Shown here: positions 60,324 to 62,683 of the stretch, piece by piece
How the letters are laid out: every line of letters begins with the position of its first letter
How positions within the stretch are numbered: position 1 is the first letter of the stretch
Assembly: GCF_016907275.1 (NCBI RefSeq)
Contig: NZ_JAFBBP010000001.1
Location: 3,958,001-4,022,000, forward strand
Direction of reading: 5' to 3'
Length of the DNA stretch: 64,000 nt
Source: Micromonospora luteifusca
Lineage (GTDB): Bacteria; Actinomycetota; Actinomycetes; Mycobacteriales; Micromonosporaceae
The notes under the pieces: model-generated
What the model saw: only the letters and a program-made list of their open reading frames with translations
Told to the model about the DNA's origin: nothing
Database searches by the model: none
Position numbers and translations under genes: made by a program

Positions 60324-60947
60324 TCAGTCGATGGGGACGTCGACTGCGGCGGCGGCTCGGGCGTGGCGGGCGCTGACCAGCGTCATCGCCCAGCCCGCCG
60401 CCGCGAAGCCGGCTGCGGCGGCGGTGGCGATGATGGCCAGCCGCCAGGCCGACTCGGTCAGCGCGGTACCGCCCAGGTGCCCGACGAGCGCGCCGTAGGT
60501 GGCCCAGCCCAGCGCGGCGACGGCCTCGTAGACCACGAACAGCCGGTACGGGTAGCGGCTGCGGCCGGCCGAGAAGCAGGCCGCCATCCGGCCGCCCGGC
60601 ACGAACCGGCAGAGCAGGATGACCAGCGGTCCGGGTTGTCGCAGCCCCTGGGTGACCCGATTGGCGACCCGACGGGCCCGGCTCAGTTCGGCGGCGTGCC
60701 GGGGTGGCCGCCGGTCCGGTGCGACCCGTCCGAGCAGGTAGCAAGCCAGGTCGCCGGCGAATACGCCGAGCGCGCCGACGGCGATGGTGACCGGCAGGTT
60801 GAGCCCGCCGTAGACGGTGAGCGCGCCACTGGTGATCATGACGATCTGGGTGGGGATCACCGGGACGAAGGCGTCCGCGATCAGCAGAACGAGCAGCAAC
60901 AGGTAGGCCCACGTCGGCGATGCGACGTCAGTCAGTAGTTCGGGCAC
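60324..60947 (-). CDS. DedA family membrane protein
   Basis: A 207-residue member of the DedA/SNARE-associated family, which transports or flips undecaprenyl phosphate or other lipids. LIADAFVPVIPTQIVMITSG is the first re-entrant-type segment and CRFVPGGRMAACFSAG is the hallmark motif (F-PGGR), followed by three helices. GTG 60947 is preferred over GTG 60956 because GAGGTGG lies five bases upstream of it and would overlap the other. It is divergent from the leader of the threonyl-tRNA synthetase-like gene. Confidence 0.88.
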   Translation of the reverse strand: MPELLTDVASPTWAYLLLLVLLIADAFVPVIPTQIVMITSGALTVYGGLNLPVTIAVGALGVFAGDLACYLLGRVAPDRRPPRHAAELSRARRVANRVTQGLRQPGPLVILLCRFVPGGRMAACFSAGRSRYPYRLFVVYEAVAALGWATYGALVGHLGGTALTESAWRLAIIATAAAAGFAAAGWAMTLVSARHARAAAAVDVPID

Positions 60948-61211
60948 GCCTGCCACCTCGCCGGATGCGGCTGATCGGGTGTCTTCAGCCTGACTGCGTG
61001 TCCGGCGTCACCGTGGACAGCCCCGGCCCGTCGTGACGGTCGACACGACCCGGCCACCCAGGTACAACGAGGCGAACCAATCTCGGGTGACGGGGTGCGG
61101 CGGCCGTCCCACCCGTCCTGCACCGGTCGGCAAATCGGCGTACGTCGGCGTACCGTTGTTCGCGCGGCCCACGCCCGTCGGGTCCCCCGTTCCTGACGAT
61201 TCGGGCCGCCT

Positions 61212-61242
61212 GGGCCGCCGGCGGGTCCCGCGCCGGCGGCCC
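61212..61242. promoter_or_regulatory. 12-bp perfect GC-rich hairpin upstream of the Thr leader
   Basis: GGGCCGCCGGCG (61212-61223) pairs with 61231-61242 around GGTCCCG. It lies about 50 bases before the putative -10 element of the leader peptide, so it may be an upstream control element. Bases 60957-61211 show no gene, only two close CGGCGTAC direct repeats near 61140. Confidence 0.4.
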
Positions 61243-61293
61243 GCCCCCTCCTTCGCCGCCGCAAATCCGGGTGCGTCCCCGATTGTCGGTGAG

Positions 61294-61299
61294 TACGGT
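61294..61299 (+). promoter_or_regulatory. -10 element for the leader peptide transcript
   Basis: TACGGT fits TANNNT and ends six bases before the leader ATG (61306), with no Shine-Dalgarno, pointing to a leaderless transcript starting at the ATG. No convincing -35. Confidence 0.45.
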
Positions 61300-61305
61300 C
61301 GCCGT

Positions 61306-61362
61306 ATGCGCAGTGCGGTAGTGGTGACCACGACGCCGGGTGTCCCCGGCGCGCCGCTCTGA
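61306..61362 (+). CDS. threonine-rich leader peptide (attenuator)
   Basis: An 18-codon ORF, MRSAVVVTTTPGVPGAPL, with three consecutive Thr codons (ACC ACG ACG) after three Val codons, ending in TGA 103 bases before a threonyl-tRNA synthetase-like gene. Translation stalling at Thr codons when charged tRNA(Thr) is scarce could shift the RNA folds downstream. GTGGT in the Val-Thr region (61321-61325) can pair with ACCAC at 61367-61371. The pattern is that of a classical transcription attenuation leader; function is inferred. Confidence 0.65.
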   Translation: MRSAVVVTTTPGVPGAPL

Positions 61363-61409
61363 CGTAACCACCGTCGACCAGGCCCCGGGGCGATCCGCCC
61401 CGGAGGGCC
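61334..61409 (+). promoter_or_regulatory. attenuator hairpins between the leader peptide and ThrRS gene
   Basis: CGCCGGG (61334-61340) pairs with CCCGGCG (61345-61351) inside the end of the leader ORF and could be a pause hairpin. A second stem at 61381-61409 has CCGGGGCG/CGCCCCGG around ATC, extended by GGCC/GGCC past an AG bulge, and is the candidate terminator. No T-run follows. Competing pairing of 61321-61325 with 61367-61371 would connect leader translation to these folds. Confidence 0.5.
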
Positions 61410-61465
61410 GCGCGCCGAACGGAGCCCAGGTCGCCTCCGGGTCGTACCCGATCCAGGAGCCCGAC

Positions 61466-62683
61466 ATGATCGACCACCGTAGGCTCGGCCGCGAGCTGGA
61501 CCTCTTCGTTTCCGATCCGCTCGCCGGCGCCGGCCTGCCGATCTGGCTGCCGGCCGGCGCCGCCGCCCGGCACGCTGTCGAGGAGTACGTCCGGGAGTTG
61601 GAGCGCCGCTCCGGTCACCAGCACGTCTACTCGCCGCCGTTGGGCAAACGCGAACTCTTCGAACTCTCCGGGCACCTCGGCTACTTCGCCGACGACATGT
61701 TCCCGCCGATGCGGCTGAGCGCGGACGACGAGTTCGTGCTCCGGCCCGCCCTCTGCCCGCACCACGCACTGGTCTTCCGCGCCCGGGGCCGCTCCTACCG
61801 CGAGCTGCCGTTGCGGATCGCGGAGCTCGGTGGGATGTACCGCTCGGAGCGCTCCGGGGTGCTCGGTGGGCTGTCCCGGGTACGCGCCATCTCGCTCAAC
61901 GACGCGCACACCTTCTGTGCCCCCGAGCAGGTGGGGGAGGAGGTCGGCCGGATCCTCGGGCTGATCCGCGCCGCGCACGCCGCGCTCGGCGTCCGCCCGG
62001 CCGGCTTCCGGCTGTCGCTGCGCGGGCCGGGCGAGAAGTACGTCGGCGACGACGCGCAGTGGCCCCGCGCGGAGGATCTGCTCCGGGGCGCGCTGGCCGG
62101 GGTGGAGTACGTCGAGGCTCCGGGGGAGGCCGCCTTCTACGGTCCGAAGATCGACATTCAGATCGTCGACGCCGCCGGCCGGGAGTCGACCCTGTCCACC
62201 ATCCAGTTGGACTTCGACAAGCCGGAGCGGTTCGACCTGTCGTACACCGACTCGGACGGCAGTCGGCGTCGACCGGTCATGGTGCACCGCAGCCTGGTCG
62301 GCAGCATGGAGCGGCTGTTCGCGTACCTGATCGAGGTGCACGAGGGTGCATTCCCGGCCTGGTACGCGCCGGTCCAACTGGTGCTGCTGCCGGTCGACGA
62401 CGGCCAGGCCGACGTGGCGGCCGACCTGGCCCGGCGGGCCGTCGACGCCGGCCTGCGGGTCGAGGTCGACGTCGCCGGCTCGCTGGGCGCCCGGATCCGG
62501 GACGCGGCCCGCCGCCGCGTCCCGTACCTCGGGGTGTTGGGTCCACGGGAGGCGGCCGACGGGCGCCTCGCGCTGCGCCTGCGCGGCGGTCGTGCCCTGA
62601 AACCGATGCCCGCGGACGCCGCGCTCGCCTTGATCGGCGGGCAGGTCGCCGCCCGCGCGGCCGAGCTGCTCCCGGCGGACTGA
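61466..62683 (+). CDS. compact threonyl-tRNA synthetase-like protein (no TGS or editing domain)
   Basis: A 405-residue class II synthetase containing only the catalytic and anticodon-binding domains of ThrRS; full-length ThrRS has about 640-690 residues. The three zinc ligands are present: Cys in RPALCPHHALVF, His in LNDAHTFC, His in VMVHRSLVGSMERL. Motif 2 reads RIAELGGMYRSERSGVLGGL. The normal QDDAH is changed to LNDAH. ATG 61466 has AGGAG (61454-61458) at seven bases. It is probably a second ThrRS used under threonine or antibiotic stress (for example borrelidin-like inhibitors), in keeping with the Thr leader upstream. Confidence 0.9.
   Translation: MIDHRRLGRELDLFVSDPLAGAGLPIWLPAGAAARHAVEEYVRELERRSGHQHVYSPPLGKRELFELSGHLGYFADDMFPPMRLSADDEFVLRPALCPHHALVFRARGRSYRELPLRIAELGGMYRSERSGVLGGLSRVRAISLNDAHTFCAPEQVGEEVGRILGLIRAAHAALGVRPAGFRLSLRGPGEKYVGDDAQWPRAEDLLRGALAGVEYVEAPGEAAFYGPKIDIQIVDAAGRESTLSTIQLDFDKPERFDLSYTDSDGSRRRPVMVHRSLVGSMERLFAYLIEVHEGAFPAWYAPVQLVLLPVDDGQADVAADLARRAVDAGLRVEVDVAGSLGARIRDAARRRVPYLGVLGPREAADGRLALRLRGGRALKPMPADAALALIGGQVAARAAELLPAD

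Follow-up and report, generated by a model that had tools for sequence, protein, structure and literature searches.

What controls the second threonyl-tRNA synthetase (ThrRS) of Micromonospora luteifusca? The window, as we call the whole 64,000-nucleotide stretch analyzed here (contig NZ_JAFBBP010000001.1, positions 3,958,001 to 4,022,000), contains a compact ThrRS gene preceded by a very short reading frame with consecutive Thr codons. From the letters of the window, a sequence-only reading had listed a Thr-rich ORF, a -10 box, two hairpins, and a ThrRS-like gene devoid of editing domains, and had proposed that ribosomes stalled at the Thr codons raise expression of this spare enzyme. All of these features were confirmed where that reading had placed them (Table 1), and comparison with homologous loci leads us to regard its core, i.e., control of the compact ThrRS gene by Thr-codon stalling in the leader, as probably correct.

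Table 1. Features of the compact ThrRS locus, in window positions.
Feature	Position	Strand	Basis or remark
WblC/WhiB7-type box CAAATC (published motif GAAAWY)	61262..61267	+	3 nt before -35 element
-35-like hexamer GTGCGT	61271..61276	+	17-nt spacer to -10; column profile
-10 box TACGGT	61294..61299	+	leaderless distance, 6 nt before ATG
Leader ORF, MRSAVVVTTTPGVPGAPL then stop, 18 codons	61306..61362	+	ORF list and homologous loci
Regulatory Thr codons ACC ACG ACG	61327..61335	+	conserved run across loci
Segment 1, CGCCGGG, 5' arm of hairpin 1:2	61334..61340	+	own-vs-swapped pairing
Segment 2	61344..61351	+	61345-61351 pairs with 1; CCCCGG 61344-61349 can pair with 3
Hairpin 3:4, terminator-like, no T-run	61381..61409	+	includes CCGGGG 61385-61390, partner of segment 2
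3:4 loop side, GGCGATC	61389..61395	+	complementary to segment 5
Segment 5 core, GGTCGCC	61429..61435	+	partner of 3:4 loop
Hairpin hiding the Shine-Dalgarno (SD), CTCC GGGTCG / CGATCC A GGAG	61435..61459	+	by eye; 5:SD covariation
SD AGGAG of ThrRS gene	61455..61459	+	window sequence
Compact ThrRS gene	61466..62683	+	405 aa; no domains other than catalytic and anticodon-binding

A compact ThrRS and its threonine leader

The product of the compact gene scores 417.4 bits against TIGR00418 (cut-off 383.65 bits) with an alignment confined to model positions 172-558 of 565, and comparison with Pfam and TIGR00418 detected neither a TGS nor an editing domain in its 405 residues. The other ThrRS of this genome is full-length (670 aa) and 43% identical to the compact one; the 450 nt upstream of it hold no ORF of fewer than 60 codons with a Thr pair. 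Two alternative readings of the compact enzyme were discarded. A zinc-free paralogue is ruled out by the zinc ligands C334, H385, and H511, which are kept in 149 of 149 compact ThrRS proteins. Nothing specific pointed to a borrelidin-resistant enzyme, as judged against the available text of two papers (PMC4389257, PMC11252418), since the residue equivalent to E. coli L489 (K in 105, Q in 39, L in 4, and M in 1 of the 149 compact proteins) is also Q in the full-length ThrRS encoded by this genome, and the compact ThrRS of the window retains H309, Y462, and G463.

Homologous loci were collected from relatives (80 loci, from genomes including Micromonospora, Salinispora, Plantactinospora, Asanoa, Phytohabitans, Catelliglobosispora, Streptomyces, and Kitasatospora) and from further genomes at family, class, and phylum level, some of which entered twice. 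A compact ThrRS was counted in 223 of 300 family genomes (E 1e-120), 61 of 394 class genomes (1e-115), and 15 of 396 phylum genomes (1e-110), counts that may contain full-length enzymes (three of the 15 in the phylum, by inspection); the leader test drew on part of these genomes only. Across the resulting 189 loci, window included, a leader ORF with a Thr run precedes the compact gene in 188, the remaining one (L151) being cut by a contig end, which supports the proposed arrangement of a Thr leader peptide and hairpins ahead of a compact, editing-less second ThrRS. Four loci that all encode full-length ThrRS (L002, L093, L096, L097) stand outside the 189, and the 188 loci reduce to 173 unique leader regions, some genomes being present under two labels.

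Failure of the Thr codons to be conserved had been named in advance as a result that would speak against the proposal. The comparison did not go against it: 183 of the 188 loci carry a run of three or more Thr codons, and the other five, all from Salinispora, carry one Asn and two Thr codons. Within the run, the first codon has G, C, or T as its third base, which argues for a constraint on the encoded residue. Peptides are of the form MRSAVVTTTPGIPGAPH in Micromonospora, MKRAAMTTTPESVPAR in Streptomyces-type loci, and MQHLRALTTTTGAVPEV or MFSALATTTPEISGAR in more distant ones, and the stop codon lies 66-313 nt upstream of the start of ThrRS homology. Leader starts were set by script, and those of L172 (106 codons) and L194 (32 codons) are probably placed too far upstream.

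Promoter pattern and spread of the element

The leaders share a promoter pattern. TANNNT stands 5-8 nt upstream of an ATG in 167 of the 173 unique leaders (6-7 nt in 164 of the 167). For 166 of these 167, the ATG and the Thr run share a reading frame, and one of 98 background stretches showed the pattern. Seven unique leaders lack the in-frame arrangement (L091, L092, L142, L164, L172, L191, L194); in L091, L092, L172, and L194, TANNNT precedes a GTG instead, a later one in the last two. The column profile of the promoters reads G-A-A-A-(T/A)-C, a gap, T-G-C-G, and then TANNNT. Of 174 unique promoters, 122 have AAA at the locked box position (Micromonosporaceae 84/114, Streptomyces-type 35/52, deep loci 3/8), as against 2 of 597 control windows; strict GAAAWY is found in 43 of the 174 and [GC]AAAWY in 71. 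On the sequence level, this arrangement fits the consensus published for WblC-activated promoters of S. coelicolor (GAAAWY, TKGMNN, TANNNT), and the available text of the same account names thrS2 among the WblC-activated genes (PMC7157823). S. coelicolor thrS2 would then be the compact enzyme with the Thr leader, and the leader promoters outside Streptomyces may likewise depend on WblC.

A covariance model built from 41 loci (R1) identified a single strong site in the genome of the window (E 1.7e-13, next match E 0.019); at E 0.001, 44 of the 246 genomes searched in the class and 7 of the 198 in the phylum gave a match. The sole matches in two genomes of the class search (G711, G883) were not Thr leaders. 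Several weaker R1 matches were inspected individually: L233 comprises a compact ThrRS gene and its leader, L232 and L234 were rejected as Thr leaders for being plain-terminator-like, and L231 and L236 were rejected as leaders of other amino acids, by eye. L236, where a leader-like ORF MRTAWSFWYGDGPVRTDRLHALR lies ahead of a gene beginning MVIVMTPEATQDD, is probably a Trp leader, and L231, with MSTQRFYGHRIPVPARV ahead of a gene resembling chorismate mutase, probably a Phe/Tyr leader. L235 (G889 C18), near a contig end, has a Thr leader that looks intact, its genome having yielded only a full-length ThrRS, and is possibly a relic. Rfam yielded three weak matches in window positions 60500-62000 at E up to 5, none of them a T-box or leader family, and no match at gathering score in 8 loci.

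The link to the compact enzyme made by the sequence-only reading holds for the 188 loci above and fails in one genus. In that genus (represented by G896; L246-L250), the element lies just upstream of a full-length ThrRS in five of five genomes, each of which yields a single ThrRS match at E 1e-60. By eye, none of these five leaders carries AAA where the WblC-type box would stand, L249 reading GAAGAT there. Because the element precedes the sole full-length ThrRS of these genomes, it suggests a portable ThrRS controller.

Covarying helices and the proposed switch

Hairpin 1:2 of the window (CGCCGGG-TGTC-CCCGGCG, 61334-61351) begins inside the Thr codons, and hairpin 3:4 lies 3' of the leader stop codon. 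Covariation was assessed by comparing pairing energies of each locus's own segments and of swapped combinations from different loci, a procedure that thins close relatives and is not phylogeny-aware. In a thinned set of 36 representatives (<75% identity, 5000 permutations), no permutation did as well as the own segments for 1:2, 3:4, loop:5, or 5:SD (0/5000 each), so that both hairpins, 1:2 and 3:4, covary. Six unrelated segment pairs, used as controls, gave 1493 (loop:SD), 1689 (seg4:s5), 3508 (seg1:s5), 3834 (seg2:s5), 3394 (seg2:SD), and 229 (seg1:SD, the nearest to a signal) of 5000. The four helices persisted in 8 representatives at <65% identity (1:2, 3:4, loop:5, and 5:SD at 2, 1, 2, and 5 of 5000), and loop:5 and 5:SD stayed at 0/5000 within 17 Micromonosporaceae and within 11 Streptomyces-type representatives, as well as at 0/2000 each in the full set. 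Taken alone, the 8 deep loci are not clear (loop:5 87/2000, 5:SD 122/2000, 2:3 819/2000). Covariation of 2:3 is weak (526/5000 in the thinned set; Micromonosporaceae 20/5000, Streptomyces-type 3242/5000; full set 5/2000), and segments 2 and 3 hardly vary. In sequence terms, the helices 1:2, 3:4, loop:5, and 5:SD, the Thr codons, and the promoter pattern are matched or conserved across loci.

Individual changes can be followed: loop GGCGAGTG occurs with segment 5 CACTCGCC, GGCGGGTG with CACCCGCC (L181), and GAGCG with CGCTC (L084, L148, L177), with counter-examples in L149, L187, and L188, where loop GAGCG stands opposite CACTC. Applied to 41 loci, RNAalifold recovered both hairpins; of 12 pairs, 4 had changes on both sides, and all 4 lie in 3:4. 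In 168 of 188 loci, segment 5 uses two or more of the same bases in its best duplex with the loop and in that with the SD zone. Pairing of segment 4 with segment 5 was considered as a release step and rejected, having no signal in the thinned set and being weaker than swapped pairs in 2000 of 2000 permutations of the full set. Three local observations may be added. TCGTCGT, complementary to the ACG ACG in the Thr run, occurs at or just after the 3:4 end in 24 of 188 loci (L158, L163, L164, and others), the window not among them. In L170, the SD of the compact gene is itself buried in a hairpin of ~16 bp by eye. In the window, the loop region of the SD hairpin (61439-61449) contains a CGU triplet, which we take to be the anticodon of one tRNA-Thr and which is absent from, e.g., L129.

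To relate these helices to ribosome position, the 188 leaders were folded as RNA ending at the 3:4 loop, with a ribosome covering 13 nt from the first base of the A-site codon and helix 2:3 scored as formed at four or more expected pairs. In this model, 2:3 formed in 100, 100, and 98% of leaders with Thr codon 1, 2, and 3 in the A site, in 99, 68, and 34% with the ribosome one, two, and three codons earlier, in 57 and 3% with the ribosome one and two codons later, in 0% with the ribosome at the stop codon, and in 10% without a ribosome (L025, L084, and L111 were read one codon early). Since 2:3 is highest with Thr codons in the A site, these codons sit at the best register; neighboring codons would also suit, and the register fits control by stalling. 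The modeled leaders accordingly possess mutually exclusive helices chosen by ribosome position, a dependence of 2:3 that belongs to the folding model.

The same folding bears on access to the SD. Mean SD openness was 0.24 over the 188 loci vs. 0.36 with segment 5 shuffled (60 sampled loci, five shuffles each). Imposing 2:3 at equilibrium left it at 0.25, with the SD more open in 12 and less open in 5 of the 188 loci, at an average cost of 12.5 kcal/mol. A simple equilibrium opening of the SD by 2:3 was therefore dropped, and the switch model needs kinetics. In a chain folded before SD synthesis, imposing 2:3 raised loop:5 pairs from 0.99 to 5.56 in 52 Streptomyces-type loci and from 2.86 to 5.16 in 128 Micromonosporaceae; the 8 deep loci showed no rise (4.69 to 4.45). 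Opening of the SD through stalling is thus possible in a growing-chain model.

From these elements we infer leader translation, stalling, an order of events, and a direction of control. A WblC/WhiB7-type promoter would start the transcript at the ATG of the leaderless leader ORF. With charged tRNA-Thr plentiful, the ribosome would reach the stop codon and cover segment 2, allowing hairpin 3:4 to close; segment 5 would then be free to hide the SD and the ThrRS gene would be off, a state to which early termination at 3:4 may add. With charged tRNA-Thr scarce, the ribosome would wait on the Thr codons and cover segment 1, segment 2 would take segment 3, and the 3:4 loop thus opened would take segment 5 before the SD is synthesized, leaving the SD open for more ThrRS. 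Most likely, then, this element, which is kept in many actinobacteria, turns on the spare ThrRS when charged tRNA-Thr is short. More tentatively, and as a distinctly conceivable version that we would not yet call probable, we propose a two-input, two-stage RNA switch present across much of the phylum, in which an antibiotic-stress (WblC/WhiB7) promoter is combined with a leaderless Thr-sensing leader, and the 3:4 loop, which copies SD-side sequence, catches the anti-SD only if a stalled ribosome prevents 3:4 from closing. The sequence-only picture, which included neither this type of promoter nor an SD-hiding stage, was incomplete to that extent.

The two-stage switch has to be weighed against simpler forms of the same core. 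Purely translational attenuation, in which 3:4 never terminates and SD access alone is controlled, is a serious though doubtful contender. It would parallel the mode proposed for mycobacterial leaderless poly-Cys ORFs, and it draws on the covariation of loop:5 and 5:SD beside flat controls, the bases shared by the two segment 5 duplexes, the lower SD openness with native segment 5, and the missing T-run. Equilibrium folding, in which 2:3 does not open the SD, speaks against it, as does the very long GC stem of 3:4, which looks terminator-like.

Classical transcription attenuation alone, with 2:3 preventing termination at 3:4 and the SD hairpin incidental, seems rather unlikely. The order of leader, 1:2, and 3:4, the stall register, and the strength and covariation of 3:4 suit this explanation, as do the attenuators predicted for Streptomyces trpS and leuS in the available text of a 2005 survey (PMC1262725). 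It has no need, however, for the covariation of segment 5 with both the SD zone and the loop, and although the GC hairpin of an intrinsic terminator is present, TTTT follows it in 3 of 188 loci only; the S. lividans leader, too, is described with one hairpin and no U-rich sequence after it (PMC8079986, available text). The scarcity of TTTT suggests that SD hiding may matter more than termination, and simple termination near 61410, where the sequence-only reading had suggested looking for it, is doubtful because 61381-61409 has no T-run. As in a translational attenuator, the SD can be drawn into an alternative helix, 5:SD, for which the covariation signal is strong in the thinned set and less clear in the deep loci. 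We therefore favor SD control, with or without termination, on the basis of the few TTTT, the reduction of SD openness by segment 5, the rise in loop:5 pairing, and the shared segment 5 bases.

Constitutive or WblC-only expression, with the leader a relic or mere translation enhancer, would agree with the promoter pattern, and induction alone could explain expression of S. coelicolor thrS2; it is nonetheless improbable in view of the four covarying helices and of a Thr run kept over large distances despite the free third base of its first codon. In E. coli, ThrRS represses its own thrS messenger by binding a tRNA-like hairpin. Such self-regulation, mentioned for E. coli in PMC2965389, would suit the GTCGTAC seen in the window and in many of the Micromonospora sequences inspected. 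It is highly improbable here, since loci such as L129 have no CGT at that place and the leader peptide would be left unexplained.

Relation to known systems

The SD control favored here describes in concrete and testable terms how a reduced spare ThrRS could be switched on in actinobacteria, and it joins two facts published separately, namely the thrL leader and the membership of thrS2 in the WblC regulon. A Thr leader of this kind, which the sequence-only reading had thought undescribed, is not wholly so: a leaderless Thr leader, thrL (SLIV_19412), was reported in 2021 before thrS (SLIV_19410) of S. lividans TK24, with two Thr codons and unclear termination (PMC8079986, available text). Its peptide MKRVRPFLETTPGFVPAR resembles by eye the Streptomyces-type leaders found here, e.g., MKRAQPFLTTTPDSVPAR in L152. 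The available text of that report does not include the switch, the SD stage, the WblC box, the breadth of the element, or the domain make-up of the ThrRS, and within the open-access literature searched, as far as its text was available, we found no account of the switch, its second stage, or its breadth, nor a second report of a ThrRS Thr leader (none in PMC4833913, PMC2965389, PMC4787780, PMC10619133, or PMC10771440). The 2005 survey, in its available text, likewise gives no conserved RNA structures upstream of threonine operons (PMC1262725). SD hiding offers an answer to the missing clear terminator in the S. lividans leader, and the loop-to-anti-SD stage, if true, adds to known attenuation designs.

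Synthetase attenuators are also close by design. Those predicted for Streptomyces trpS and leuS, and that of S. coelicolor trpRS1, reportedly established by Vecchione and Sello in 2010, place a leader peptide ahead of a synthetase gene and use codons for the amino acid which that synthetase charges, as here, but the amino acids are other than Thr. We know of no loop-to-anti-SD stage in any of them. The mycobacterial poly-Cys attenuators (Canestrari 2020), likened here through the descriptions in the available text of citing papers (PMC9031893, PMC13236596), share a leaderless short ORF, a codon run, and translational control of the next gene, with cysteine in place of Thr. Finally, the WblC/WhiB7 regulon of S. 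coelicolor has the same promoter consensus and counts thrS2 among its members, whereas its account, in the text available, comes without the Thr leader that characterizes the locus described here (PMC7157823).
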